Source of the DNA: Rhodobiaceae bacterium
GTDB taxonomy: Bacteria; Pseudomonadota; Alphaproteobacteria; MED-G09
Reading direction: 5' to 3'
Assembly (NCBI GenBank): GCA_002726005.1
Contig: PBRS01000045.1
Location: 1-61,093, forward strand
Length of the DNA: 61,093 bases
Shown: positions 25,411-42,755 of the stretch, piece by piece
How positions within the stretch are numbered: the stretch's first letter is position 1
Layout of the letters: the number at the start of each line of letters is the position of its first letter
Translations under genes and position numbers: made by a program
The notes under the pieces: model-generated
Databases searched by the model: none
What the model was told of the DNA's origin: nothing
The model's input: only the letters and a program-made list of their open reading frames with translations

Positions 25411-27777
25411 ATGAAAAACTTACATAAACTAGTATTTTTGTTTGCGTCTTTTTTAGTTGCAAGCACATTTACTTCAACAGGTTATTCTCAAGATGAGAGT
25501 GGATCAAGTCTTCAAATTGAAGAAATTATTGTTACAGCTCAAAAAAGAGAACAATCTGCACAAGATGTTCCAATATCAATTACAGCTATGGACGAAGAAC
25601 TTCTAAGTTCAACAATTAGAAATATTTCAGATGTTACTGGATATGCTCCTAATGTTGTTCTTGGCGGTGAAGGGCGTAGAGGTGGTGCTACAGCTATACA
25701 GATTAGAGGTATTGCTGCTGCTACTAATACTGATAATACTTTTGACTCGCCAATCGCTGTTAATGTTGATGGCATTTATCTCGGTCAGAACGCTGGATCA
25801 TTATTAGATAATTTTGATATGGAAAGAATTGAAATTCTAAGAGGTCCGCAAGGTACTCTATTTGGTAAAAATACAACTGGTGGTGTGATAAATGTTATCA
25901 GAACTCGTCCAACTGGAGAGTTTGGTGGTAAAGTAAAAGCAACTATCGGTGAAGATGGGCGTCAAGAATTAAGAGCTGTAATAAATACTAAATTATCAGA
26001 TAATTTAGCAGCTAAATTCTTTGCAACTTCTAGACAAAGTGATGGCTGGATTCCAAATATTACTATTGGTGGCCATAATGGTGAAGAAGATTACCAAGCA
26101 TATGGTGTAACACTATTATTTACACCAAATGATAGATTTGAAGCTCTTTTAACTTTAGAATCAATGCATGATAAAAGTGCATTAAAAGCTTATAACCAAA
26201 ACTTTAATGTTGCGCCAGGAGTAATACCTCCTCCACCTCCAGGTCCAAATGTAACGGATTTCAGTGGTGGGCTATTAGCTTGTGCGATTTACGCTGAAGC
26301 TTGTAGAACTTCTCCTGATCAACTTCCTTATGCTGAAAATGATACACAGCATGATGCCGATGTTGAGACAGATGCAATTACACTTCAAATGACTTATGAG
26401 TTAAATGAGAATGTAACACTTAAATACATTGGTGGTTATAGAGATGTAAGTGAGGATCGTATTTATGACTATGATGGATCTGCAGCTCCTTTCATTACAC
26501 TTGAAAGATGGAATGTTTATGATCAAACAAGTCATGAGTTTCAACTTAATGGCTCATTTGCTAATGTTGAATTAACTGCTGGTCTTTATATGTTTGAAAA
26601 AGAACATACTCAGGATTGGGCAACAGGCGGAACATTCTGGGGAGTTCTTTTTGGAGGAGCTTTATCTGCTCCAGGTCAATGGGAACTATGTCAGGACTTT
26701 TTTGAGCCTACTTATTCCGTAGCTTGTGATCCTACAGAACCAGCCTATCCTACAGGTACTCTTTATCAAATCCTTTATTCTACACAAAAAACAGAATCTA
26801 AGGCTGCATATGCTCAAGCTGATTGGGCTGTGAATGACCGATGGACACTTACAGGTGGCGTTAGATATACTGAAGAAGAAAAGGATTTCTATGCCGGTCA
26901 GGCTTATCTTGCTGGTCATGATATAGGTGAAGGACGTAACTTCCCTGATTATGCTGATCTTCAAAAGAAATGGGATGATACATCTATTAAAGTAGGCGCA
27001 TCATATCAAATCAATGACGATGCTCTTGCATACCTAACATATACAGAAGGCTTTCACTCAGGTGGTTTCTATGCTGTTGTTCAGCAAACAAAACATATGA
27101 GAAGAAACCAATATGATCCTGAATATTCAGAAAGCACTGAGTTAGGTATCAAAACTTTCTTATTTGATAGAAGAGTTCAACTTAATGCAGCCTACTTCAT
27201 GAATGATTATGCTGGTAAGCAAGAAGAATCAACGCAAGTTGATCCTCAAACAAAAACTGTTGCTTCCTTCTGGTCTAATGTTGCTGCTGCAGAATATGAA
27301 GGCTTTGAAATCGATATTCAATGGCTTGTAAATGAGTATCTACGTGTTTTTGCTAATTACGGAACTCTAGATGCTTCATATCAAGGTTTCTTTACAGATA
27401 TCAATGAAAGTGATGGAATTACAAAAATTGAATCTGCTGATTTCTTAACACCAAGATTTGCTCCTGAAGAATCATGGGGTATTGGCGGAACATTATCTAT
27501 TCCTGCTGGAAATGGCACTGTAGATGTTTTTGCAAAATACAATAGAATTGGTGAGCAAGAAACAGATCTTCTTAATGCTGCTCTCGCTAGAGCGCCAGAA
27601 ACAGAAAATCTGACAGCATCTATTGGATACTTCCAAGATGGTTGGTCAATTGTTGCATATGGTAGAAATCTTACTGATGAACAATATGAAGTTGTTGATC
27701 CGATTATGCCTCTATTCGCAATTGGTACAATTAATGAAGGACGTAAGTTTGGAGTTGAATTAACTTACGAATTCTAA
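25411..27777 (+). CDS. TonB-dependent outer-membrane receptor (1 of 3)
   Basis: Outer-membrane active transporter of 788 residues. A signal peptide (about 1-26, ending GYSQ) is followed by the TonB-box-like IEEIIVTAQKR, a plug domain with VNVDGIYLGQN and the ERIEILRGPQGTLFGKNTTGGVINV signature (about 145-170), then a 22-strand-type beta barrel ending in Phe (LTYEF). Two Cys pairs occur in probable extracellular loops (LLACAIYAEAC; ELCQDFF...VAC). Sequence is clearly paralogous to the third receptor of the cluster. The ligand is unknown; this group includes receptors for complex carbohydrates, siderophores and vitamin-like compounds. Confidence 0.94.
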   Translation: MKNLHKLVFLFASFLVASTFTSTGYSQDESGSSLQIEEIIVTAQKREQSAQDVPISITAMDEELLSSTIRNISDVTGYAPNVVLGGEGRRGGATAIQIRGIAAATNTDNTFDSPIAVNVDGIYLGQNAGSLLDNFDMERIEILRGPQGTLFGKNTTGGVINVIRTRPTGEFGGKVKATIGEDGRQELRAVINTKLSDNLAAKFFATSRQSDGWIPNITIGGHNGEEDYQAYGVTLLFTPNDRFEALLTLESMHDKSALKAYNQNFNVAPGVIPPPPPGPNVTDFSGGLLACAIYAEACRTSPDQLPYAENDTQHDADVETDAITLQMTYELNENVTLKYIGGYRDVSEDRIYDYDGSAAPFITLERWNVYDQTSHEFQLNGSFANVELTAGLYMFEKEHTQDWATGGTFWGVLFGGALSAPGQWELCQDFFEPTYSVACDPTEPAYPTGTLYQILYSTQKTESKAAYAQADWAVNDRWTLTGGVRYTEEEKDFYAGQAYLAGHDIGEGRNFPDYADLQKKWDDTSIKVGASYQINDDALAYLTYTEGFHSGGFYAVVQQTKHMRRNQYDPEYSESTELGIKTFLFDRRVQLNAAYFMNDYAGKQEESTQVDPQTKTVASFWSNVAAAEYEGFEIDIQWLVNEYLRVFANYGTLDASYQGFFTDINESDGITKIESADFLTPRFAPEESWGIGGTLSIPAGNGTVDVFAKYNRIGEQETDLLNAALARAPETENLTASIGYFQDGWSIVAYGRNLTDEQYEVVDPIMPLFAIGTINEGRKFGVELTYEF

Positions 27778-27800
27778 TTAATAATTAAATAATTAATTAA

Positions 27801-27830
27801 AAAGGGCCATTTCAATTGGCCCTTTTTTTT
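27801..27830 (+). terminator. Rho-independent terminator after TonB receptor 1
   Basis: Stem AAAGGGCCA/TGGCCCTTT (27801-27809 with 27817-27825), 7-base loop, then Ts to 27830. A weaker AT-rich hairpin with a T-run follows at 27846-27868. The remaining gap up to 27947 shows no other clear element. Confidence 0.93.
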
Positions 27831-27947
27831 ATCCACAACTTAAAAATCAATAAATATTGATCTTTTTTTAAAAATGGTCATTAATATGATTGTAGATTTA
27901 TAAAATAAAAATAAAAAAAATTTAAATTACAAAAATTTGAGGAAAAA

Positions 27948-30401
27948 ATGAAAACATTCAACCGCCTTTTAATAGGCTCTTCGTTAATGATATTATCATT
28001 AACTTCTCTCTCTTCTTATGCTCAAGAAGTTGAAAATTCTGGAATAGAAGAAATTATAGTAACTGCAAGACAGCAAGATGAAAGCTTACAAGATGTTCCT
28101 GTTGCTGTTTCGGTGATGTCAGAAGTTGATCTTGATCGTTATAATATAACAAGCTTAACTGATGCTGCAAAAATGGTTCCGAATTTTAGAATTAATGCTG
28201 GAGGTTCTGGAAATGGATCCAATATTTATTTAAGAGGAATTGGCTCGAGCTCAATCTCTGCCGCTTTTGATCAATCAGTTGCAATTAATATCGACGGTGT
28301 AGTGGTTAATAGAGGGCGATTTATTCACAATGCTTATCTTGATATGTCACAAATCGAAGTTCTTAAAGGACCTCAATCTTTATACTTCGGTAAATCTGCG
28401 ACGGCTGGGGTGATATCAATCAAAACAAATGACCCTACGGATGAATTTGAAGCTGAATTTGGTGTTGGTGTTGAAACTGAGCACGAAACAACATTTTTTG
28501 AAGGAGTTATATCTGGACCAATAAGTGATAATTTACTAGCTAGACTTGCATTTGGTACAAGTGAAACAGATGAACTTCGTGAAAATTATTCATTCGGTAA
28601 TGATCCTATGCCTTATGGAAACGGTACTAAACCTTTTTTTGGTGAGGAGTCAACAAATGCAAGATTAACTCTTCTATGGACACCCACTGAAACCTTAACG
28701 GCAAAATTAAAGTATCAATATTCAAAATATGAAAATGATGGTGGTGGAACAATGTATCAAGAGGAATGGTGCGCTGATGGACTTGGTAATCCTCTTGCTC
28801 ATCAAATAACAGGAGTTCCAGGTGCAACAGCTGCTTTCACAACTAGGGTTGGTGTTGATGATTGTGTCGTCAATGGTAACACTTCTAAGATTAATTTAGA
28901 GCCTGGATTAAGGGCTGGACTTCCTTATGGTTTTGATAATGGAGAGCCTGGACTAGATCAAGAAACTGATTTGATTTCTTTACAAGTAAATTGGGATATT
29001 AATGATGATCTTTCTTTAACATCCATTACAAGTATCGTTGAATTAGATCATGTTGAATTAGATGACTATAGTTATGGTGCAGGTGTTTATGGTGGTTTGC
29101 ATAGAAATGTATACGAACATACATCGCAAGAGTTAAGGCTTACTAGTGATTTTGATGGAGCATTTAACTTCCAAGCAGGTTTATTCGTTCAAGAAATCGA
29201 GCAAAGATTTGATGCTCATCAATATGCTTTTAACCTTCCAATTACACCAAATATATTTGGTCCAGTTTTAGCGGTTTTTGGTGCTTTTGATCCAACATCT
29301 GCCCTTGTAGGACCAGACCCAGCTACAGGAAATGCATATGACTATAATAAAGATCATTATCTTGATACTGATGTAAGGTCAGCTAGTATTGCTATTTATG
29401 TTGATGTCAATGAAAGAACTGAATTATCATTTGGTGCACGATATACTGAAGAAGAAAAGACAGGATATATTAAGATTCCTTATATTCATGCTGCTGCTGC
29501 TGCTTTTGGTTTTGGCGCTCCTCCTTTAATTGAAGGTTTAGAGTTTGAGGATGACAATCTATCTCCTGAAGTTGCTATAAATTACTATATCAATGAAGAT
29601 ACTAGTATTTATGTTGCTTATAAAAAAGCGTTTAAATCTGGTGGAATTGATAATAGTGCCTTACCAACAGCATCTATTAATCCTTTATCTCCTACTTTCG
29701 AAGGCTTCGATGCATTGATTTATGATTCTGAAGAAGTAGATGGCTTTGAAATTGGTTTAAAATCTAATCTTCTTGATAATAATATGAGATTAAACGCTAC
29801 ATACTATAAGTATGAATACACTAATCTTCAGGTCCAACTTTTCGATGCGGCAATTATCCAGTTCAGCACTTTTAATGCAGGTGCAGTTGAAACTGAGGGA
29901 TTTGAAGCAGATTTACTCTGGTATACAGATATACCTGGACTATCTTTAAGGGGACAATTTGCATGGACAGATGCTACTAATACTGGTGATTTTATAACTC
30001 CTGGCGGAGAAAATCTTAAAGGTAGTAAAAGATCTTATAGCCCTGAAATAGCTGGATCCTTTGGTTTAAGTTATGACTCTGGACTATCAAATGGTTGGAG
30101 ATATAATATTTCGACTGATGCAAGATATAGTGATGAATACGGTTGGGGAACTTACATAGATTCACCAATGCAGGATTCTTTCTGGATTAATGATATTGCA
30201 TTAAGCTTATACTCCGAAGATGGTAAACATTCGTTTAATCTAATTGGAAGAAACCTTGGTGATGAAATCGTTATTATTACAGGTGGTGCAATTCCAGGAA
30301 GAATTTCAACACAAACTGGTACTTCTGCTCTTATTCAAGACCAAGCTGTAACAACTCAACAAGGTAAGACTTTTACATTGCAATATAAATATAAAATGTA
30401 A
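27948..30401 (+). CDS. TonB-dependent outer-membrane receptor (2 of 3)
   Basis: An 817-residue receptor with a signal peptide (about 1-25, ending SYAQ), TonB-box region GIEEIIVTARQQ, plug domain with VAINIDGVVVNRGRF and the variant signature SQIEVLKGPQSLYFGKSATAGVISI, then the beta barrel. It belongs to a different subgroup from receptors 1 and 3, reading LKGPQSLYFGKS where they read LRGPQGTLFGKN. The chain ends QYKYKM, with Met where outer-membrane barrels normally end in Phe or Trp. A GAGG ribosome binding site is present. The ligand is unknown. Confidence 0.93.
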   Translation: MKTFNRLLIGSSLMILSLTSLSSYAQEVENSGIEEIIVTARQQDESLQDVPVAVSVMSEVDLDRYNITSLTDAAKMVPNFRINAGGSGNGSNIYLRGIGSSSISAAFDQSVAINIDGVVVNRGRFIHNAYLDMSQIEVLKGPQSLYFGKSATAGVISIKTNDPTDEFEAEFGVGVETEHETTFFEGVISGPISDNLLARLAFGTSETDELRENYSFGNDPMPYGNGTKPFFGEESTNARLTLLWTPTETLTAKLKYQYSKYENDGGGTMYQEEWCADGLGNPLAHQITGVPGATAAFTTRVGVDDCVVNGNTSKINLEPGLRAGLPYGFDNGEPGLDQETDLISLQVNWDINDDLSLTSITSIVELDHVELDDYSYGAGVYGGLHRNVYEHTSQELRLTSDFDGAFNFQAGLFVQEIEQRFDAHQYAFNLPITPNIFGPVLAVFGAFDPTSALVGPDPATGNAYDYNKDHYLDTDVRSASIAIYVDVNERTELSFGARYTEEEKTGYIKIPYIHAAAAAFGFGAPPLIEGLEFEDDNLSPEVAINYYINEDTSIYVAYKKAFKSGGIDNSALPTASINPLSPTFEGFDALIYDSEEVDGFEIGLKSNLLDNNMRLNATYYKYEYTNLQVQLFDAAIIQFSTFNAGAVETEGFEADLLWYTDIPGLSLRGQFAWTDATNTGDFITPGGENLKGSKRSYSPEIAGSFGLSYDSGLSNGWRYNISTDARYSDEYGWGTYIDSPMQDSFWINDIALSLYSEDGKHSFNLIGRNLGDEIVIITGGAIPGRISTQTGTSALIQDQAVTTQQGKTFTLQYKYKM

Positions 30402-30414
30402 TTAAAAGGAAAAC

Positions 30415-30447
30415 AAAAAAAGGCCGCAATTTACGGCCTTTTTTTTT
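30415..30447 (+). terminator. Rho-independent terminator after TonB receptor 2
   Basis: The A-run plus AGGCCG (to 30426) pairs with CGGCCT plus the T-run (30434-30447) around a short CAATTTA-type loop. It isolates receptor 2 from receptor 3. The rest of the gap to 30553 is AT-rich with no other clear element. Confidence 0.93.
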
Positions 30448-30553
30448 GTGGTTTAATTTATTTATAAAATAATTGCTATTAATTAAATAAATAGTAATAT
30501 TTTTGTTATATTGAAAAAATAAAAATAAGAATTTTTTTTCGGGGAGATAAATA

Positions 30554-32953
30554 ATGTCTAATTTATTCAGTCAAATTAAATATGTTTTTTTTGGTTTATG
30601 CTTTTCTTTAATTTTACCAATGTTCTTAAACACTGCACTTGCACAAGAATCATCAAGTTTAGAAATTGAAGAAATAATTGTTACAGCCCAAAAAAGAGAG
30701 GAATCTCTTCAGGATGTTCCCATAGCTATAACCGCTATAACTGAACAGCTTGAAGATGCTACAATACGTAACATTGCCGATTTAAGTGCATTTGCACCAA
30801 ATGTTATTATTGGTGAAACATCAGTTCGGGCAAGAGGTTCGGCTATTACCATCAGAGGTATTAACTCAAGTGAATCTGATAAATCATTTGATCCCAAAAT
30901 TCTTGTTGAATTAGATGGCGTTGCTATTGGTACGAACTCTGGCCAAGTTATTGAAAACTTTGACTTAGAAAGAATTGAGATTCTTAGGGGTCCTCAAGGT
31001 ACTCTTTTCGGTAAAAATACTAATGGTGGTGTTATTAGAGTTATGAGAAGCAAGCCCACTGGTGAATTTGGCGGTAAAGTTCAAGCTACTCTTGGTGATA
31101 ATGGACAAGAAGAATTAAGAGCTATTATTAATACCTCGATTATTGATGATACTCTTGCTCTTAAACTTTTTGGAACATCTATCAAAAATGATGGTCACCT
31201 TTACAATACCTATGTGCAAACAGATGGACCAAAGAAAGATTATACTAATTATGGCGCATCATTATTATTTACAACAGATAGATTTGAAGCCCATTTAACT
31301 CTTGAGACATATGATGATGGCAGTGATGTTGGCGCATGGACTAATAAAAATGATGCAACAACTGTGATCTGTAATGTATATGATCCTCTTTATCCTGATG
31401 GCACACCAAAAACAGGTGCTGCATTAGGACCTGTAATGGCTTTCAACCCTGGAATGCACAATACATGCGAATCTAATGATAAAACTGCTAGCCCAACAAC
31501 ATATAACACTAATAGCACTAATCCGGGTCAATTTGATACCGATGCAATTACACTAAATATGTCGTATGAATTAAATGATAACAGTAGGCTAGTTTATACT
31601 GGTGGTTATCGTGACGAAGAAGAAGATACTTACTGGGAATATGACGGAACTCCAATGCCATGGATTTGGATTGAGGCAACAAATTATTATGAGCAAGAAA
31701 GTCATGAAATAAGATATGAAACTGTCCAAGATAATTATAATCTAACAGTTGGGGCTTATTTTTGGGACAGCACATATCATCAGGACTGGATTACTAGAGG
31801 TTCATTTTGGTCAACTCTAGTTCCGCCATTTTTATATGAAGCAATGCTTGTAGGTGCTGTTGGGGCTTTAAGAGCTGAACCGGGTCTTGAAAATGGACTT
31901 GGACCAAATTATGTTCAAAAGCTTCTTCAAGAACAACAAACTGAATCACAAGCAGTATTTGCAAATCTTGATTATCAAGTAAACGATAAAGTAATGCTTA
32001 CTTTTGGCATTAGATATACTGAGGAAGAAAAAGCATTTATTGGTGGGCAGTCTTATTTCACAACAAATGAAAGAGCATACATAAATAACTTTGCAAATAT
32101 TGGACTTCCTGGCGAAGCCAGCATAGCTAATCTTGTAAAGAAATATGATGAAATTTCAGGAAAAATTGGCTTAACTTATCAAGTTAGTGAAGATGTAATG
32201 ACATATGTAACTTACTCAGAAGGCTTCCAAAGCGGTGGTTTCTTCGGAAGAAATCAGAATGTTCAAGATTTCAAGAATACATATGATCCTGAATTTGCAA
32301 GAACACTTTCAGTTGGTGTAAAAAGTTTACTTCTTGATAAAAGAGTCCAGCTAAATGCTGAGTATTTTAGAAATGACTTTGAAGATAAGCAGGAAGACAC
32401 TATTAAACTTGATCCAACTACAAGAACAGTTGTTACAGTAATTGATAATGTGGCCGGTGTTCTTTATGAAGGATTAGAAGTCGAAATGAGAGCTTTAGTT
32501 TCCGAAAATTTAGAAGCATTTGTGAATGTAGGTTTTCTTGATGCCGAATATGATGGCTTTATAGCTGATCTAGATGGAGCTAATGCTGAAGGTTTAATCG
32601 AGCCTACAAATAATGATGCATTAACACCTAAATATTCACCAGAAGTAACTTTCTCTGTTGGAGGAACATATACTGCGACGGTTGGTCCGGGTGAATTAAG
32701 TATATTTGCAAAATATAGCTTTATTGATGAGCAGGAATCTACCACTACAAATATTGCAGTGGGTAAAGTTCCTTCTCAAGATCGAGTAGATGCATCAGTA
32801 ACATATAGTTGGTCAAATTATAGAATTTCTGCTTTTGGTAGAAACTTAACAGATGAAATTGTTGCTCCTGTTAGAGATATATCAAGCTTGATGATTTTTG
32901 GTTCACCAACTGTTGGAAAAGTATTTGGTGTAAACCTTACAGCAGAATTTTAA
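30554..32953 (+). CDS. TonB-dependent outer-membrane receptor (3 of 3)
   Basis: A 799-residue receptor with a signal peptide (about 1-30, ending ALAQ), TonB-box region EIEEIIVTAQKRE, a plug with VELDGVAIGTNSG and the signature ERIEILRGPQGTLFGKNTNGGVIRV, and a barrel ending NLTAEF with the expected terminal Phe. It matches receptor 1 closely through the plug (TIRNI, PTGEFGGKV, EGFxSGGF), so the two are tandem-type paralogues that diverged mainly in extracellular loops. A CGGGGAG ribosome binding site is 8 bases before the ATG. Receptors 1 and 3 may bind related ligands. Confidence 0.94.
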   Translation: MSNLFSQIKYVFFGLCFSLILPMFLNTALAQESSSLEIEEIIVTAQKREESLQDVPIAITAITEQLEDATIRNIADLSAFAPNVIIGETSVRARGSAITIRGINSSESDKSFDPKILVELDGVAIGTNSGQVIENFDLERIEILRGPQGTLFGKNTNGGVIRVMRSKPTGEFGGKVQATLGDNGQEELRAIINTSIIDDTLALKLFGTSIKNDGHLYNTYVQTDGPKKDYTNYGASLLFTTDRFEAHLTLETYDDGSDVGAWTNKNDATTVICNVYDPLYPDGTPKTGAALGPVMAFNPGMHNTCESNDKTASPTTYNTNSTNPGQFDTDAITLNMSYELNDNSRLVYTGGYRDEEEDTYWEYDGTPMPWIWIEATNYYEQESHEIRYETVQDNYNLTVGAYFWDSTYHQDWITRGSFWSTLVPPFLYEAMLVGAVGALRAEPGLENGLGPNYVQKLLQEQQTESQAVFANLDYQVNDKVMLTFGIRYTEEEKAFIGGQSYFTTNERAYINNFANIGLPGEASIANLVKKYDEISGKIGLTYQVSEDVMTYVTYSEGFQSGGFFGRNQNVQDFKNTYDPEFARTLSVGVKSLLLDKRVQLNAEYFRNDFEDKQEDTIKLDPTTRTVVTVIDNVAGVLYEGLEVEMRALVSENLEAFVNVGFLDAEYDGFIADLDGANAEGLIEPTNNDALTPKYSPEVTFSVGGTYTATVGPGELSIFAKYSFIDEQESTTTNIAVGKVPSQDRVDASVTYSWSNYRISAFGRNLTDEIVAPVRDISSLMIFGSPTVGKVFGVNLTAEF

Positions 32954-34527: not shown

Positions 34528-35304
34528 ATGCCAATTTTAGAATTATTTAATTTAAAAGATGATGTAGCTGTTGTAACGGGTGCAGGCAAAGGTATAGGAA
34601 AAGGAATTGCAATTGCTTTAGCTGAAGCTGGGTCAAATGTTGTCCTTGCCTCCAGAACAGAAAATGATCTTAACGAAGTACAAAAGGAAATTAAGAAATT
34701 AGGAAGAGAGGCAATAGTAGTGCCGATAGATGTTACAAACCCAAATTCTTTTGAAAACTTAAGTGAAAAAGCCCTTAAAGAGTTTGGTAAAATAAGTACA
34801 TGGGTAAATAACGCTGGAGGTTTACCTGATGGAACTCCGCGCTATCTTACTAAGACTTCAATTGAGGAGTTTGAGGCACAAATAAACCTTAACTTCACTG
34901 CTGTTTTTAATGGCTGTGTTACTGCAGCCAAGAAAATGCAGGAGGGAGGTGCAATAATTAATATCTCTTCTAGTTCATCAAAAAATATGCAAGGAAATTT
35001 AAAAAATGGCCCGTATGGCGCCTCGAAAGCTGCTGTCAACAGTTTGACATCAACTCTTGCATTGGAGTTAGCTCCTAAAATTAGGGTTAATGCTATTGCA
35101 CCAGGTCCGATACCAACAGAAAACTTTAAGGATTCAATGAACATGCATACAGAAGAAAGAGAGAAAGAATTAAAAAAATATATTCCTATTCCGCTCAATA
35201 GATGGGGATCTCCTGAAGATATAGGTGCAGCAGTAGTCTTTATGGCATCAAATGCGTCAAGCTGGGTGACTGGACAGTGTCTTTTTGTTGATGGCGGTAC
35301 TTAG
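34528..35304 (+). CDS. SDR family oxidoreductase
   Basis: A classical short-chain dehydrogenase of 258 residues, NAD(P)-dependent. It shows the cofactor loop TGAGKGIGKG (about 17-26), the NNAGG motif, Ser in INISSSSSK, the catalytic YGASK, and the C-terminal SWVTGQCLFVDGGT. The Arg at SRTEND in the second strand suggests NADP preference. The AAGGAGG ribosome binding site is near-perfect. It lies between divergent hydrolase and convergent histidine-kinase genes. The substrate is unknown. Confidence 0.92.
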   Translation: MPILELFNLKDDVAVVTGAGKGIGKGIAIALAEAGSNVVLASRTENDLNEVQKEIKKLGREAIVVPIDVTNPNSFENLSEKALKEFGKISTWVNNAGGLPDGTPRYLTKTSIEEFEAQINLNFTAVFNGCVTAAKKMQEGGAIINISSSSSKNMQGNLKNGPYGASKAAVNSLTSTLALELAPKIRVNAIAPGPIPTENFKDSMNMHTEEREKELKKYIPIPLNRWGSPEDIGAAVVFMASNASSWVTGQCLFVDGGT

Positions 35305-36680
35305 GATTCTATAGGAATTTCAATCAATATAATCAACCCTGAAGGCTTAGCATTTATTAATTTTAAAGTACCTTCATGGAATTTAACAGCTGAACTAACA
35401 AGATTTAAACCCAATCCAGAACCTTTTAAACTTCTACTAGAATCAAGTCTCACAAATCTCTCTAATACTTTATCTTTGTCCGCATCTCTAATTCCAATAC
35501 CATTATCGCTTACCCATAAAGATAAAAGGTTTTCATTTTGTTTTGCTCCAACATTTATAGATGGATTATCATTTGAGCAACCATAATTAATAGCATTTTC
35601 AATTAAATTGGCTAAAGCCTGAGAGAGTAAATTATAATTGCCATTAATAATAATATCTTCATTAACTTCGTAATTTAATTTAATTCCATCTGAATCAGCA
35701 ATAGGTTCATATAACTCATGCATATTTAAAATTAATTCTTTTAGACTTACTTGGTTTCTGTCTAAATCTGATGTACCTGATTCAACTTTTGATATAGATA
35801 AAATCGAATTAAAAGTTTTAATCAAATTATCAGTTTCTACAAGCGCATCTTCAAATGATTTCTTATATTGATCTATATCTGGGTTTGACATTAATGTGAC
35901 TTCTAAATTTGTTCTAATTCTGTTTAGAGGAGTTCTTAAATCATGAGCAACATTATCAGAGACCTCTTTCATATTGCTCATTAGAGAGTCTAACCTATCT
36001 AACATTTCATTTAAATTAGATGATAATTGATTTAATTCATCTTTACCTTTTGTAGTTGGTAAGCGCTCTTTTAGATTGCCATCCATGATTTTTTTGCTAG
36101 TTTTATTTATATCTGAAATTCTTTTTAAAAAATTTCTACTTAGGATATAACCTCCAAATATTCCAAGAAAAATAATTATTAGAATTGACCATAAAGAGCT
36201 ATAAAGAAACCTCTCTTTCAGAATCTTTTCATCATTTACTACTCTCCCAACAATTAATCTTAAATTCCTGCGTGGAGTTATAAAATTTCTTCCTCTACCG
36301 TAATGAACCTTTTCAACTCCATTTTCATTTACTTGATATGCAAACTCTATCCATCCATCATCATTGATTTTAATATCTTTAGGCTCAGTCTTAATATTGC
36401 CTGCTATATAATTATTTTGTGAGTCATAAAGTCTATAAATATCAAGTGTTGCCCTAGATGTTTCACTTCTTATGTAATTTAAGAGACCTTGTTCCCTATA
36501 TCTTAAATAAATATTATTTAAATCCTCAACCTTCTCAATTATTTTTTGATCAGCCTCCAACTCAATATCTCTTGCTGTTGTAAAGAACAAAAACATCAGA
36601 ACAAGTCCAACTGACAACCCTAAAAGCATTGTATAGATAAAAATTAGTCTAAAACTAGCTAAATTAAATGGATTATTCAT
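35301..36680 (-). CDS. Two-component sensor histidine kinase
   Basis: A 459-residue membrane kinase. TM1 spans about 11-34 and TM2 about 160-181, with a 125-residue periplasmic sensor region between them, then a HAMP linker (182-235). The phosphoacceptor is His246 in VAHDLRTPLNR. The ATPase domain shows the N box NLIENAINYG, G1 box DNGIGI and G2 box GSGLGLNLV. It overlaps the response-regulator gene by 8 bases and is translated after it. The signal sensed is unknown; the periplasmic domain has no recognised fold. Confidence 0.94.
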   Translation of the reverse strand: MNNPFNLASFRLIFIYTMLLGLSVGLVLMFLFFTTARDIELEADQKIIEKVEDLNNIYLRYREQGLLNYIRSETSRATLDIYRLYDSQNNYIAGNIKTEPKDIKINDDGWIEFAYQVNENGVEKVHYGRGRNFITPRRNLRLIVGRVVNDEKILKERFLYSSLWSILIIIFLGIFGGYILSRNFLKRISDINKTSKKIMDGNLKERLPTTKGKDELNQLSSNLNEMLDRLDSLMSNMKEVSDNVAHDLRTPLNRIRTNLEVTLMSNPDIDQYKKSFEDALVETDNLIKTFNSILSISKVESGTSDLDRNQVSLKELILNMHELYEPIADSDGIKLNYEVNEDIIINGNYNLLSQALANLIENAINYGCSNDNPSINVGAKQNENLLSLWVSDNGIGIRDADKDKVLERFVRLDSSRSLKGSGLGLNLVSSAVKFHEGTLKLINAKPSGLIILIEIPIES

Positions 36681-37353
36681 CGTATCTTAAAGCATACCCA
36701 GCACCACGCTCAGTGAAGAGCATTTGCTTCCCTTTAAAAGGTTTATCTATTTTTGAGCGTAATCTGGATATATGAACATCAATAACATTTGTTTGAGGAT
36801 CAAAATGATATTCCCAAACGCCCTCTAAGAGCATAGTCCTTGTAACAACTTGATTGGGCCTTCTAAGTAAAAATTCCAAGAGTTTATATTCCCTAGGCTG
36901 TAAATCAATAATTTGCCCCTCCCTTTCAACTCTTCTACTTAACAAATCAAGTTTTAAATCACCTAACTCAAGCAAACTATTGTTATTCTCATGTTGATTT
37001 CTTCTTATTACAGCATCTAAACGGGCTAATAATTCTGAAAAGGAAAACGGTTTCGCTAGATAGTCATCTGCGCCATATTTAAGACCCTTTACACGCTCAT
37101 CTACTTCGCCTAAGGCAGAAAGAATAATTATTGGTATATCTGAATTTTTTTCCCTAATTTTAGTAATTAAAGTTAAACCATCTAATTCTGGAAGCATCCT
37201 ATCGACAATTAATGCATCAAAATTTGAGTCAAAAGCCATAAACAGACCTTCTTTTCCGTCACTAGCCCTATCTACTACATGACCACTTTCTTTGAGACCC
37301 TTTATTAAATAAGATGCAGTCTCATTATCGTCTTCTACAAGCAATATATGCAT
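36673..37353 (-). CDS. OmpR/PhoB-family response regulator
   Basis: A 226-residue transcription factor. The receiver domain has the acidic pair EDD (7-9), phosphoacceptor Asp51 in LIVDRMLPELDG and Lys101 in YLAKPFSF. The winged-helix domain follows from about 128, with LQPREYKLLEFLLRRPNQVVTR and NVIDVHISRLRSKID. AGGAG lies six bases before the ATG. It is first in a two-gene operon with the kinase. The structured intergenic region to its right (37408-37460) may be a target, but OmpR-type regulators normally bind direct rather than inverted repeats. Confidence 0.95.
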   Translation of the reverse strand: MHILLVEDDNETASYLIKGLKESGHVVDRASDGKEGLFMAFDSNFDALIVDRMLPELDGLTLITKIREKNSDIPIIILSALGEVDERVKGLKYGADDYLAKPFSFSELLARLDAVIRRNQHENNNSLLELGDLKLDLLSRRVEREGQIIDLQPREYKLLEFLLRRPNQVVTRTMLLEGVWEYHFDPQTNVIDVHISRLRSKIDKPFKGKQMLFTERGAGYALRYDE

Positions 37354-37407
37354 AAATTACTCCTCTTGTAAGAATAATTCAATTTAACCAATTATGTCAT
37401 TATTTTA

Positions 37408-37460
37408 ATTTGGCCTCATCTATATGATGGGGGAGGCTTCTAATATAGATGTGGCCAAAT
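37408..37460. promoter_or_regulatory. Long near-perfect inverted repeat with a competing inner hairpin, between regulator and CoA-transferase
   Basis: ATTTGGCCTCATCTATAT (37408-37425) pairs with ATATAGATGTGGCCAAAT (37443-37460) at 17 of 18 positions, leaving a 17-base spacer rich in G. Part of the left arm, GCCTCATC (37413-37420), can instead pair with GATG...GAGGC in the spacer (37426-37437), so the two structures exclude each other. On the plus strand the long stem is followed by a short T-run. This could be a transcription attenuator or a large operator; position alone cannot decide. Confidence 0.55.
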
Positions 37461-37550
37461 ATTTTTCAATCAAACCATTATCTAATAGTTTCTTTTACCA
37501 GAACATTTCTTTAATATTAATTTTTTTTAATGTTCATAAAGGAGTTTAAG

Positions 37551-38735
37551 TTGAATATTTTAAATGGAATTAGAGTTTTAGATTTTGGAAGGTATATTGC
37601 TGGTCCTTATTGTGCTGCGCTTCTAGGAGATCTAGGTGCGGAAGTTATAAGGGTTGAAAGAATTGATGGATCCGAAGATAGATATATACATCCTATAGGA
37701 AACCCCAATGGCGAAGGTGCCATGTTCATGCAAATGAATAGAAATAAAAAAGGATTAACATTAAATCCTACAAAGGATGGATCTCAAGAAATAGTTAAAA
37801 AGCTCATTGAATCAGCAGATGTCGTAGTAGCTAATCTTCCTCCTCAAACCCTAAAAAGAATGGGTATAGATTATGAAACTATCAAAAAATATAATGATAA
37901 AATAATACTAACCACTGTTTCTGCTTTTGGTCATGGTGGACCATATTCTGAAAGGGTTGGATTTGATGGTGTTGGTCAGGCTATGTCCGGAGCAACGCAT
38001 TTAACCGGCTATGAAGATGAACCAATAAAAGCCTATTCTCCTTATGTTGATTATGGAACTGCATCACTTACAGCTATGGGTACCCTGGCTGCAATTATTG
38101 ACAGAGAAAAAACCGGTAGAGGGCAAGTTGTTGAAGGAGCTCTTTTTGCTACATCTCTAGCATTCATGAATACTCATCTCATCGAAGAGGCTATAACAAA
38201 TAAAAACAGAAAAGCAATTGGAAATAAAAGTCCTTATGCAGGACCTGTAGATATAGTTAAAACAAAAGATGGATGGATTGTTGTCCAAGTTCTTGGGGAG
38301 CCATTGTTTAAAAGATGGGCAAAACTAGTAGAAGCGGAAGATTTTCTTGATGATGATAGATTTTCTACTGATATCAAAAGAGGAGAAAACTCTCAAATTC
38401 TAAGTGATAAAACTCAAGATTGGTGCAAAGATTTATCATCAAAAGATGCTCTAAATTTACTTTCTGAAGCCCAGGTGCCTGCTGGGCCAGTTAATAATTT
38501 AGCTGATGTTTTAAAAGATGAGCATGTTGATCAGATGAATTTTTTTCAAGAAGTAGAATATCCAGGATTAAATAAACCTGCGCCAGTTATGGGATTACCG
38601 ATAAACCTCTCAAATTCAGAAAATAAAATTAAAAAGAGACCTCCAACTCTAGGTGAAGATACAAATCAAATTCTAACTGAACTAGGTTTCTCTGAAGAGG
38701 AAATTAATATATTTAGAGATAAACGAATTATTTAA
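37551..38735 (+). CDS. Family III CoA-transferase (CaiB/BaiF type)
   Basis: Moves CoA between carboxylic acids. A 394-residue protein beginning with the typical LNGIRVLDFGRYIAGPYCAALLGDLGAEVIRVE, then the MQMNRNKKGLTLN and PPQTLKRMGIDYE blocks; the catalytic Asp expected near GVGQAMSGATHLTGYEDEP is plausible but not proven. The TTG at 37551 was chosen because AAAGGAG lies six bases upstream and homologues begin here; an ATG at 37530 would precede the ribosome binding site. The upstream region also has GAACATT (37501) pairing with AATGTTC (37529). The donor and acceptor acids are unknown. Confidence 0.9.
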   Translation: MNILNGIRVLDFGRYIAGPYCAALLGDLGAEVIRVERIDGSEDRYIHPIGNPNGEGAMFMQMNRNKKGLTLNPTKDGSQEIVKKLIESADVVVANLPPQTLKRMGIDYETIKKYNDKIILTTVSAFGHGGPYSERVGFDGVGQAMSGATHLTGYEDEPIKAYSPYVDYGTASLTAMGTLAAIIDREKTGRGQVVEGALFATSLAFMNTHLIEEAITNKNRKAIGNKSPYAGPVDIVKTKDGWIVVQVLGEPLFKRWAKLVEAEDFLDDDRFSTDIKRGENSQILSDKTQDWCKDLSSKDALNLLSEAQVPAGPVNNLADVLKDEHVDQMNFFQEVEYPGLNKPAPVMGLPINLSNSENKIKKRPPTLGEDTNQILTELGFSEEEINIFRDKRII

Positions 38736-39427
38736 AACCCTATAAAGTCTGTAAAATCTTCAATATCTACTCTTTTACTCCTAAATGTATTTATTGGGTC
38801 ATCTTCATCAGCGTAACCAATACCCATTCCACAAAATAGCATTAATTCTTCAGGTATATTTAAGAATTTATTTACGGTTTTATACCAAATTGCCCACGCC
38901 TCTTGTGGTGCTGTATGCAAGCCCTCTTCTCTTGCTAAAAGCATAATTGATTGCATAAACATTCCTAAATCTGACCATTGACCTTCTTGCATCTGCCTGT
39001 CGATTGCAAAAAATATTGCTACAGGAGCGCCAAAAAATTCAAAATTTCTTTTAAATTGATTAAGCCTTCCAGCTTTATCTTCTTTAGGTATATTCAAAAC
39101 ATCATACATAGACCTTCCGACTTCCCTTCGTCTTGACTCATATGGCTCTTTCAGATTTGGTGGATAAATATTATATTCTGTTCCTTCTCCCATAGGATTT
39201 TCTTTAATTTTATTGGCAACATCTTCAATAAAATCTTTTAGAGGATTTCCTGAGACTACCCATATTTTCCATGGTTGAAGATTCCCGCCTGAGGGGGCTC
39301 TTTTAGCTTTTTCTAAAAGATCAATAATTACTCTCTTTTCTGGAACTTTGTTGGTGAAAGCCCTACATGTCAAACGAGTATCTAAAGCTTCACTAACTGT
39401 AGACGCTTTTTTAGATAATTTTTTCAT
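38732..39427 (-). CDS. Nitroreductase family flavoprotein
   Basis: A 231-residue FMN-dependent NAD(P)H oxidoreductase. The FMN-binding start RLTCRAFTNKVPEKR and RAPSGGNLQPWKIWVV (about 50-65) and the later LGMFMQSIMLLAREEGLHTAPQ block are typical. The enzyme family reduces nitroaromatics, quinones or flavins, and some members do other redox chemistry. It is last in the minus-strand operon with the ABC transporter and the VOC protein, four bases from the permease gene, so it probably modifies the imported compound. Its stop interlocks with the convergent CoA-transferase stop in TTAA. Confidence 0.9.
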   Translation of the reverse strand: MKKLSKKASTVSEALDTRLTCRAFTNKVPEKRVIIDLLEKAKRAPSGGNLQPWKIWVVSGNPLKDFIEDVANKIKENPMGEGTEYNIYPPNLKEPYESRRREVGRSMYDVLNIPKEDKAGRLNQFKRNFEFFGAPVAIFFAIDRQMQEGQWSDLGMFMQSIMLLAREEGLHTAPQEAWAIWYKTVNKFLNIPEELMLFCGMGIGYADEDDPINTFRSKRVDIEDFTDFIGF

Positions 39428-39430
39428 CTT

Positions 39431-40216
39431 TTAACTTTCATTTTCTTTTACGCTTTGATGCCAACGCCTCAAAATACTATATTCTATGGTAGACATTAAT
39501 AAAAATAGAAATATTCCAGATAATACAAGCAATATTAAGGCGGAAAATAGCTTAGCTATATCTAATCTGTTACCAGATTCAATAATAATCCAAGATAAAC
39601 CAGCAGATGAGCCAGTGCCAGCTACAAATTCTGCTACAACAGTTCCAATTAATGCCAAACCTATTGAAGTCTTCATCCCAGTTAAAATATAAGGTGTTGC
39701 ATAAGGTAAATTCAATTTCATTAAAGTTTGCCACTTTGAGGCTCTATTAATAAGAAACAGTTCTTTTAAATTTTTATCAACTGAACGAAAACCTAAATTA
39801 GTATTTGCTAGTACAGGAAAAAAGGCAACAATTACTGATAAAATTAGTATTGCCATTTCAGCATTATCAAGACCTACCCATATTATAATTAATGGTGCAA
39901 TTGCAACAACAGGGGTCACTTGAAAGATTACTGTAATTGGATAAAGAGAGATTTCTAAAATCTTTGATAAGGAAAAAATTATAGCTAAACCTATAGCTAT
40001 AAGTGTAGCAATTAAAAATGCAAATAATGTAATTTTAAGTGTATTTAATGTTGCTAGTAGTAATTCCCTTAAATTATCATTTAAAGAGAGAAAAATATCT
40101 GTTGGAGCTGGTAAAATATAGAGTTGTATAGAAAATAAATTAACTAGAAGCTCCCATATTATAAAAATAATACTTAGAGCTATTATTGGAGAAAAATAAG
40201 TAGATAATTTATTCAT
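39431..40216 (-). CDS. ABC transporter permease (NitT/TauT type, SsuC/ThiX-like)
   Basis: A 261-residue inner-membrane protein with about six hydrophobic segments. The BPD_transp_1 EAA-type loop is near residues 145-175 (NLKELFLINRASKWQTLMKLNLPYATPYIL). Homologous permeases import sulfonates, nitrate, taurine or thiamine precursors. It overlaps the ATPase gene by 8 bases and precedes the nitroreductase. It forms the channel of the importer with the substrate-binding protein at 40937-41932. Confidence 0.91.
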   Translation of the reverse strand: MNKLSTYFSPIIALSIIFIIWELLVNLFSIQLYILPAPTDIFLSLNDNLRELLLATLNTLKITLFAFLIATLIAIGLAIIFSLSKILEISLYPITVIFQVTPVVAIAPLIIIWVGLDNAEMAILILSVIVAFFPVLANTNLGFRSVDKNLKELFLINRASKWQTLMKLNLPYATPYILTGMKTSIGLALIGTVVAEFVAGTGSSAGLSWIIIESGNRLDIAKLFSALILLVLSGIFLFLLMSTIEYSILRRWHQSVKENES

Positions 40217-40934
40217 TATTTACTCCACTTTTTAATTTTTCAAAAATTTCACTATTTATAGTTTGGAATTCTTTACTTCCTATAAATTCTTCTTTTGAAT
40301 TGTATTGACTAATATTTTTTTCGTACACTAACTTGCCCGGCCCAGATGAAAGAACGAGCACTCTTTGAGATAAATAAATTGCCTCAGATACAGAATGAGT
40401 CACAAACAATACAGTAAACTTTTCTTTTTCCCATATTTCTAGAAGATCATCCTCAAGTTTCCTTCTTGTGATCTCATCTAAGGCTGCAAAAGGTTCATCA
40501 AGCAATAAAAGATTACATCCATTGATGAGTGAACGAGCGATAGAAACTCTCATCATTTGGCCACCGGATAATTCATTAGGGTAACTCTTTTCTTTGTCTT
40601 TTAAACCTACTCTCGCTAGCCACATTAAAGCTTCTTCCCTTGAAGATTTCTTCTTATTTAATTCTAGAGGCAAAGTGACGTTCTCCAGAACAGTACGCCA
40701 TGGCATTAATGTTGGGTTTTGAAAGACAAACCCAATTGATAAATCTTTATGAGAGGTATAATCCACAAGACCTTTAGTAGGCTTCGCTAAATTTGATGCT
40801 AATCTTAATAATGTAGACTTTCCGCATCCCGATGGACCTAAAATTGATACAAATTCTCCAGAATCTATTTTTAGATTTATATCGGAAAGAACATCCTTAT
40901 CAAATTTCATATGAACATTAGAAAAATTTAACAT
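40209..40934 (-). CDS. ABC transporter ATP-binding protein (NitT/TauT type)
   Basis: A 241-residue ATPase of the nitrate/sulfonate/taurine group. Walker A GPSGCGKST is at 33-41, the signature ELSGGQMMRVSIARSL near 122-137, Walker B LLLLDEPFAALDE near 143-155 and the switch His in FVTHSVSEA. It lies two bases after the binding-protein gene and overlaps the permease gene. It powers import of an unidentified ligand. Confidence 0.94.
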   Translation of the reverse strand: MLNFSNVHMKFDKDVLSDINLKIDSGEFVSILGPSGCGKSTLLRLASNLAKPTKGLVDYTSHKDLSIGFVFQNPTLMPWRTVLENVTLPLELNKKKSSREEALMWLARVGLKDKEKSYPNELSGGQMMRVSIARSLINGCNLLLLDEPFAALDEITRRKLEDDLLEIWEKEKFTVLFVTHSVSEAIYLSQRVLVLSSGPGKLVYEKNISQYNSKEEFIGSKEFQTINSEIFEKLKSGVNNE

Positions 40935-40936
40935 GT

Positions 40937-41932
40937 TTATCTTCTATTAATAAATTCAAGGGAGTATGAGTCTTTCCAGTTAAGCTCTTTATTATAAACA
41001 TTATAATCTGACATTGTTTTAAAGAATTCTTCCCATCTTTTATTTTCCATCAAACCTATATCTATATACCCATCCATACTTGAAATTAAATTATATTCTC
41101 TGATTTTATCAATCGCTTGAGAAATAATTTCATTTGTCATTTCTTTATTTTCTTTAAGAATAAGTTCATTGCCAGCATCCGGGTTTTCATAAATATATTT
41201 CCTCCAGCCTAAAATACTTGCCTCGACAAAAGCCCTTACAACTTCTGGTTTTCTCTCAATTATATCATTCCTAGCTAGAATCATTGCTCCATATCCTGGA
41301 AAACCATAATCAGATAAGAGAAATATATTTGGCGCCATACCTAATTCCTTTTCTACAAGATAAGGTTCTGATGTTAAATAGCCTTGCAATATTGCTTCTT
41401 GATTAACTAAAAAAGGAGCCAAACTAAAAGTTTTTCTTCTTATTTGTTTATCGTTAAATAAATATTTTGATTTTAACCAAACCCAAAAAGCACCAATACT
41501 ATTCTCAGAAATCATGATTGGTTTATCTACCATTTCATTTAAACTCTCAATAGAAGAAGAGTTATGCGTTATAATGACTTGTGGATCTTTTTGAAATGAA
41601 GCCATAACTGCTTTTGCTGGTATTCCATTACTAAGTATATTAAGAGGTACAAAGCTATTTGATCCAATGCCAAAATCTATTTCTTTAGCCGCAAGGAGTC
41701 TTGGAATATTAATACCAGCATTGCCTTGAATAATTTCAACATCTAAACCCCTCTCTTCATATAACCCAAGCGCCAAAGCATGGTAGAAACCACCCTGTTC
41801 TGCTTGAGCTCGCCAATCCGTTGCAAATTTAATCTTTATTAATTCTCTATTTTCTTCAGCAATAATTGAAACATGTATTGAATTCAAAAGTATTATTAAT
41901 GAAAAAGTAATTATTTTAAGAAATTTAATCAT
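40937..41932 (-). CDS. ABC transporter substrate-binding protein (NMT1/THI5-like)
   Basis: A periplasmic solute-binding protein of 331 residues with a signal peptide (about 1-25). The start of the mature part, IKFATDWRAQAEQGGFYHALALG (residue run split here: YEERGLDVEI), is the NMT1/THI5-like pattern, followed by LLAAKEIDFGIGSN and the hinge segment QKDPQVIITHNSS. Relatives bind hydroxymethylpyrimidine or formyl-aminopyrimidine, taurine, sulfonates or aromatic acids; the residues do not decide which. It overlaps the preceding VOC gene by 8 bases. No thiamine-pyrophosphate riboswitch is seen upstream. Confidence 0.88.
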   Translation of the reverse strand: MIKFLKIITFSLIILLNSIHVSIIAEENRELIKIKFATDWRAQAEQGGFYHALALGLYEERGLDVEIIQGNAGINIPRLLAAKEIDFGIGSNSFVPLNILSNGIPAKAVMASFQKDPQVIITHNSSSIESLNEMVDKPIMISENSIGAFWVWLKSKYLFNDKQIRRKTFSLAPFLVNQEAILQGYLTSEPYLVEKELGMAPNIFLLSDYGFPGYGAMILARNDIIERKPEVVRAFVEASILGWRKYIYENPDAGNELILKENKEMTNEIISQAIDKIREYNLISSMDGYIDIGLMENKRWEEFFKTMSDYNVYNKELNWKDSYSLEFINRR

Positions 41933-42755
41933 CTAAACCTATAATTATAGTTGGCATCTTTAAAGGTGCATTTCTTATTGTTGCAACGATTGTACCAGGC
42001 TTTCTTCCCTTTCTTATCTCAGAAAGCTCAAAATTAGAATCAATTAATCTTTTGTGACATTTAGAGATATTTTCACTATGCCACCCTATTCCTCCATAAG
42101 ATAAAGATTCAGAATCAGGATTTTCAATTACTTCTAGCGTAACACCGCCAATGCGAAAAAACATCATTCTTATATCCTTTTCGCCAAAATTAAAAACCTT
42201 ATCTAACGCCAGTCTAATTCCAAGTTTTTCAGTGAATAAATCTCTTAGATGTTCGATATCAGGAGTATAGATGATTATTTGATTAAACTTTGAAATAGTA
42301 TCATCTTCATAATTCCCTTTATCATTTAAAGCTGTGTCTTGATCAAAAACTAATAAATTTAAATCAGAAGGATTAGTCTTTTTCAGTGAGAAAAATCTAG
42401 ATTTTATATTTTTTTTATTTCTGAAATTGAAGTCAATTTCTTCAATATCACTTATATTTAAATTCATTTCTTTAAATTTTCTATGATCTTCAAAAATATC
42501 GTCAGATACAATTGATAAAGCTTGAATTCCATTATCCAGATTATGTTTTTTTAACTGCGAATAATAAAAAATATCTTCTTGGTTTTTGTTTTCGCATAGC
42601 TCAATAGATCCATTTTTTAAATTATGGCTATATATCTTTAAATCGCTATCGTTACCTATATCACTTGTGTCATGACCAAATAATTTATGAAACTGCTCAT
42701 GGCTTTCTTCAATATTTCCAGATGTAATTAGTATACTTTTAAAATGTGTAAGCAT
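41925..42755 (-). CDS. Two-domain VOC family protein, first gene of the ABC-nitroreductase operon
   Basis: A 276-residue protein made of two VOC halves. The first (about 3-135) starts THFKSILITSGNIEESHEQFHKLFG; the second (about 155-275) starts NQIIIYTPDIEHLRDLFTEKLG and contains MMFFRIGGVTLEVIENP and IGWHSENISKCHKRL. The second half is the better preserved and has His and Glu residues where metal ligands usually lie. It could be a lyase or dioxygenase-like enzyme or a binding protein. It is the first gene of a five-gene operon, so it probably acts on or binds the transported compound. Confidence 0.8.
   Translation of the reverse strand: MLTHFKSILITSGNIEESHEQFHKLFGHDTSDIGNDSDLKIYSHNLKNGSIELCENKNQEDIFYYSQLKKHNLDNGIQALSIVSDDIFEDHRKFKEMNLNISDIEEIDFNFRNKKNIKSRFFSLKKTNPSDLNLLVFDQDTALNDKGNYEDDTISKFNQIIIYTPDIEHLRDLFTEKLGIRLALDKVFNFGEKDIRMMFFRIGGVTLEVIENPDSESLSYGGIGWHSENISKCHKRLIDSNFELSEIRKGRKPGTIVATIRNAPLKMPTIIIGLDD

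Follow-up and report, generated by a model that had tools for sequence, protein, structure and literature searches.

What kind of element is the long inverted repeat at 37408-37460, lying between a two-component regulator and a CoA-transferase, and for which of the two genes does it work? The window, that is, the whole stretch of DNA analysed here (61,093 nucleotides), comes from a 1.26-Mb draft genome of the marine PS1/OCS116 clade (Alphaproteobacteria). Bacteria of this clade are streamlined plankton of the ocean with small genomes. The repeat lies between the minus-strand genes of an OmpR-type regulator and its kinase and the divergent, plus-strand gene of a family III CoA-transferase (Table 1). 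The named relatives of this CoA-transferase (75–98% identity) come from single cells of the PS1 clade/OCS116 and from related MAGs of Alphaproteobacteria. Its start is probably a TTG, as judged from the alignment, where G008 has an ATG at the same place; a nitroreductase and an NMT1/SsuA-type ABC transporter adjoin it (38732-42755). The response regulator scored above the cut-offs for both PF00072 and PF00486, the receiver and Trans_reg_C domains by which the OmpR family is recognized. The nearest NCBIfam model is that of the copper/heavy-metal type (TIGR01387; CztR/SilR/CopR), and the score against it (243.9 bits) is below its cut-off of 279.2. A first-pass annotation had described the repeat as a pair of nested, mutually exclusive folds next to a T-run, in the manner of an attenuator or a structured operator.

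Table 1. Coordinates of the features at the regulator/CoA-transferase locus (positions in the window)
Feature	Position	Strand	Evidence or remark
Sensor histidine kinase	35301..36680	-	HAMP, HisKA, HATPase_c; overlaps regulator end
OmpR-type response regulator	36673..37353	-	Response_reg and Trans_reg_C domains
Remaining regulator leader	37354..37407	-	Conserved TTATTCTT-type stretch ahead of the Shine-Dalgarno
GGAG Shine-Dalgarno of response regulator	37360..37363	-	Invariant in 15/15
3' arm of leader hairpin	37408..37425	-	Inverted repeat, folding, covariation
Loop motif CUCCCC (plus strand GGGGAG)	37430..37435	-	Invariant in 15/15 relatives with the locus
5' arm of leader hairpin (transcribed first)	37443..37460	-	Inverted repeat, folding, covariation
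Second conserved block (TTTACCAnnACATTTCT..TATTAATT..TAATGT)	37494..37534	.	Sequence conservation; includes the second inverted repeat
CoA-transferase family III (CaiB/BaiF)	37551..38735	+	Domain search; Shine-Dalgarno AAGGAG

The 18-nt arms were found as originally described; they mismatch at one position (T·T) and enclose a spacer of 17 nt. The hairpin folds far better than its shuffled versions on either strand (z -5.1 for the plus and z -4.8 for the minus strand; 0/200 shuffles in each case). Four repeats with arms of at least 14 nt and at most one mismatch are present in the window, and this one is the longest. An 18-nt arm, however, was also obtained in 1 of 12 simulated Markov windows. 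Length alone is therefore insufficient, and we place the repeat above chance because it is conserved in 15 genomes with compensatory change.

The family sample consisted of 18 genomes from only three genera. The head-to-head pair of regulator and CoA-transferase co-occurs with the hairpin in 15 of them, and in all 15 intact loci the hairpin lies between the same two genes, at a fixed position ahead of the regulator. Two genomes (G001 and G015) are without close copies of the regulator and the CoA-transferase, and in G002 the copies are broken. At this G002 locus (L052; G002:C21:4611-8462), the kinase sequence joins the middle of the CoA-transferase directly, with the regulator start and the spacer missing; the junction is either a rearrangement or an assembly error. 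The 15 loci were used to build a covariance model, which they match by construction; it gave one strong match in each of these genomes (62–84 bits), while the remaining matches in the family had E-values of 0.014 or worse and were on the opposite strand or at chance level. A repeat element or mobile DNA was rejected on the ground of one copy per genome in a syntenic place. The class-wide search of 385 genomes, run with stricter filters at which weak matches are lost, returned five matches, all in the family, and none in the 380 genomes outside it. Among 28 other named loci outside the family, the regulator was never beside the CoA-transferase. A distant relative of the regulator (~39% identical) lies at least 3 kb away in L124-L126, and L107-L109 have a distant kinase match. 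By eye, no comparable hairpin was seen ahead of the outgroup regulators (L022-L036), a comparison weakened by their G+C-rich DNA.

Across the relatives, the stem is 15–18 bp long and carries an open loop of 17–25 nt. The outer TTTG/CAAA is constant, while the inner bases differ among the three genera with both arms changing jointly. When the 15 pairs of the stem were compared between genera, 98.1% of 210 cells were paired and 8 of the 15 pairs showed two-sided change. In neither paired cells nor covariation score did any of 500 shuffles do as well as the stem; in the number of additional pair types, the stem did not exceed the shuffles. Control stems slid along the alignment were only 25–40% paired. 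RNAalifold, given the whole spacer, arrived at the same stem without prompting, with 13 pairs of which 6 showed two-sided change. On the CoA-transferase tree, 24 pair changes were counted, of which 22 end in Watson-Crick or G·U pairs, and six were independent two-sided Watson-Crick replacements. The covariation check that the first-pass annotation had called for thus came out on the side of an RNA structure. Because the bases of a protein site would stay the same, whereas here both arms change together, a nucleic-acid hairpin is favoured. That the inverted repeat is the stem of a structured RNA, kept by compensatory change, is well supported by these alignments.

The strand on which this RNA is made could be approached from the imperfect pairs, because a G·U mismatch on one strand is a C·A on the opposite strand. 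In the reading toward the regulator, 13 G·U and one A·C occur among the 11 distinct arm pairs, and the plus-strand reading brings the paired cells down to 91.4%. Parsimony gives eight changes that end in G·U, against no more than one A·C state. A bias of this kind arises by chance about once in 50 cases for 8 versus 1 (binomial) and with a probability of 0.035 for 7 versus 1, on a base of about eight or nine independent changes in three genera. Imperfect pairs that are G·U only in the leftward reading point to a hairpin in the leader of the mRNA for regulator and kinase and not to an attenuator of the CoA-transferase. The RNA is most likely the 5' leader of this mRNA, the strand evidence being moderate. 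The position and strand of the hairpin would fit a cis-regulatory 5' leader RNA, as does its compensated stem. A stand-alone RNA instead of a leader is possible; no terminator follows the hairpin. No clear sigma-70 promoter for a leftward leader was found in the right place (three promoter-like sites versus 1.9 expected).

Between the hairpin and the CoA-transferase lies the second conserved block, which is almost invariant across the three genera. The second repeat reported at the first pass, GAACATT/AATGTTC, is present there with all 7 of 7 bases matching (37501-37507 and 37529-37535). Its inner bases are constant and its outer bases change mostly without compensation. By the first-pass annotation's own reasoning, bases kept without compensation indicate a protein or promoter site and not an RNA, and the repeat has the look of promoter or operator DNA. 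The block is likely to be the promoter/operator of the CoA-transferase, and it is possibly the regulator's own site. Matches to the block elsewhere (L002 and L145) were dropped, as by eye they are apparently coding sequence.

These observations bear on three other explanations of the locus. The main repeat could be a DNA element to which the regulator itself binds, as an operator or a cruciform. In favour of this, it lies between divergent genes, one of which encodes a DNA-binding regulator, and in G005 it is perfectly symmetric. Yet its half-sites change jointly between genera, its tolerance of G·U is RNA-like, the usual binding sites of OmpR-type regulators are direct repeats, and the block at 37494-37534 is a better operator candidate, which makes this explanation very unlikely. 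It is just as hard to maintain that a plus-strand RNA controls the CoA-transferase as a terminator hairpin or through exclusive folds, although this RNA folds strongly (-26.9 kcal/mol) and a T-run does follow the hairpin in the source genome. The T-run (TATTTTT) is not conserved among the relatives (for example, in G008), and no terminator-like site was called in the region. Pairing of the spacer with the left arm (GCCTC/GAGGC; 37413-37417 with 37433-37437) exists here as described; but all five of its pairs occur in only 3 of 15 sequences, from a single genus, and the ten sequences of the other genera have two or fewer, so the mutually exclusive folds are not conserved beyond one genus. The G·U bias favours the opposite strand, and, with the promoter-like block lying between hairpin and CoA-transferase, transcription of this gene probably begins beyond the hairpin. 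The locus does not show the combination that marks a transcription attenuator, a stem then a U-run with a conserved, exclusive antiterminator, and we regard the attenuator as highly improbable.

The third explanation keeps the leader but shifts its function to a second hairpin, in which UUAUUCUU pairs with the GGAG region and hides the Shine-Dalgarno, the whole leader being a switch or a thermometer. In the source genus, the regulator's Shine-Dalgarno lies within a stem of 12 pairs (pairing probability 0.99), and the stretch is conserved. On the other hand, the stem is weaker or irregular in other genera (irregular in G007, G008 and G014), and, when a shorter span is folded, the Shine-Dalgarno pairing is ordinary beside other genes of the window and is equalled by shuffles in most genomes. 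As shuffles and other genes do similarly, we do not claim a sequestering hairpin, and a switch of this kind appears unlikely.

We therefore turn to the loop of the main hairpin. Its invariant core, CUCCCC, is usually followed by A-rich sequence and is mostly exposed in the folded leaders, where its mean pairing probability is 0.00–0.29 (at most 0.10 in 13/15). CUCCCC is anti-Shine-Dalgarno-like, the complement of a strong Shine-Dalgarno. A conserved partner in cis was not found: GGGGAG is absent from the leader, regulator and kinase in 15/15 loci. Pairing of the loop with the regulator's own Shine-Dalgarno was rejected, as GGAG/CUCC gives only 4 bp (5 in G013) with an extension that, by eye, is unconserved. 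A leader peptide after GGGGAG on the plus strand was also rejected; an ATG follows in some relatives, and by eye neither frame nor start is kept.

In the source genome, the GGGGAG pattern occurs at 21 sites versus 11 for the reversed control. It starts seven genes with frames of at least 100 aa, and 4 of these 7 encode TonB-dependent receptors, an enrichment with a chance probability of about 1e-6 (hypergeometric, assuming 1000–1300 genes). GGGGAG-type Shine-Dalgarno sequences are concentrated in the TonB-dependent receptors of this genome, and the motif is present in the start region of 6 of 18 receptor genes (30535-30556; L079, L085, L087, L088 and L090). Three receptor genes stand in tandem in the window (25411-32953); a G+C-rich inverted repeat between A- and T-runs after the second (30415-30445) is probably a terminator. 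The nitroreductase of G007 also begins with GGGGAG (L210). In three other genomes, 30 of 67 GGGGAG sites were examined; 11 of them have frames of at least 60 aa, four being receptors. One receptor start in G008 matches the loop of its own genome over about 13 consecutive pairs. The duplex energy of the loop was lower at the 18 receptors (median -12.0) than at 35 other start sites (-5.5; p 0.001). However, receptors were preferred equally by the 16S anti-Shine-Dalgarno tail, by loops with shuffled flanks and by most loops shuffled throughout. As the 16S tail and shuffled loops that keep the core do as well, the preference reflects strong Shine-Dalgarno sequences, and we rejected it as evidence of specific targeting. 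The GGGGAG start sites of TonB receptors are plausible candidate partners of the loop. Hfq was detected in 14 of 18 family genomes, including the source genome; G008 gave no match.

Our leading guess is a base-pairing role, because the loop is anti-Shine-Dalgarno. We give an even chance to a leader hairpin of the regulator/kinase mRNA that works through pairing of its loop, in trans, with a G-rich RNA. Leftward transcription from a promoter immediately to the right of the hairpin would put the repeat into the 5' leader of the response-regulator/kinase mRNA. The stem would display an open loop with CUCCCC, often followed by an A-run, and the loop may then pair in trans either with a G-rich regulatory RNA that controls regulator synthesis or with target mRNAs, for example those of TonB-dependent receptors, at their Shine-Dalgarno regions. 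In a dual-use version, the CUCCCC and A-run loop, in the mRNA or in a released 5' fragment, would block GGGGAG-type Shine-Dalgarnos of TonB receptors. This version is rather unlikely; if true, regulator synthesis would directly reshape outer-membrane uptake, and envelope sensing would be joined to receptor choice through the leader. Alternatively, the 5' structure may be bound by a protein or stabilize the mRNA, the C-rich loop being recognized or the 5' end protected with no RNA-RNA pairing. We consider this possible, though doubtful. Covariation serves it equally, an invariant loop on a stem of free sequence suits a protein ligand equally well, and neither the missing conserved partner in cis nor the unspecific receptor preference speaks for pairing. 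It would leave to coincidence both the perfect anti-Shine-Dalgarno-type string in the loop core and the receptors among the GGGGAG-started genes. Returning to the base-pairing role, a conserved anti-Shine-Dalgarno leader on a two-component system would show RNA-level control surviving genome reduction, and the conserved loop and strand bias provide a concrete, testable seed and strand.

Consistent with the earlier statement that no known riboswitch matches, the only Rfam matches in the window at curated cut-offs are two tRNAs. With permissive settings, the only matches were to eukaryotic, viral or Listeria families, at chance level and well short of cut-off. The hairpin itself reaches no Rfam gathering cut-off, and a riboswitch or other known RNA was rejected. 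Searches of open-licence papers brought up nothing that describes a leader of this sort in the PS1/OCS116 clade. On the sequence evidence, the hairpin is real, conserved and covarying; it is new as a specific element, of a kind already known. Single-hairpin leader motifs of streamlined marine bacteria, such as the ffh motif of Pelagibacter, likewise show covariation and precede a single gene of a small marine genome, and they differ in gene, loop and clade (PMC2704228); a text search of the main text of that paper gave no mention of two-component systems or response regulators. Riboregulation tied to an OmpR-type system and outer-membrane receptors is represented by OmrA/OmrB of OmpR-EnvZ (excerpts of PMC12559287). 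These sRNAs, in contrast, are separate genes induced by OmpR. OmrA/OmrB also act on the ompR leader.

A close resemblance in the same class is to the aR8 sRNAs (SisA-D of Caulobacter and MmgR of Sinorhizobium), alphaproteobacterial RNAs with an exposed, C-rich anti-Shine-Dalgarno stretch (PMC12559287, as excerpted). The sequence UUUCCUCCCU is shared by SisA-D, and TonB-receptor mRNAs are repressed by SisA, a precedent for a pairing role of the PS1 loop (same excerpts). By the same source, aR8 RNAs are stand-alone and end in a terminator, with UUUCCUCCCU downstream of a weak hairpin. The PS1 hairpin, on the other hand, is strong, lies in an mRNA leader and presents CUCCCC in its apical loop; the loop does not contain UUUCCUCCCU, no Rho-independent terminator was called, and the neighbours are the regulator and the CoA-transferase instead of the FGase gene found beside aR8. 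The G-rich second stem-loop of the Caulobacter sponge RNA CrfA resembles what the opposite strand of the PS1 hairpin would show (PMC12559287, in part), whereas the strand evidence in PS1 favours the C-rich side.
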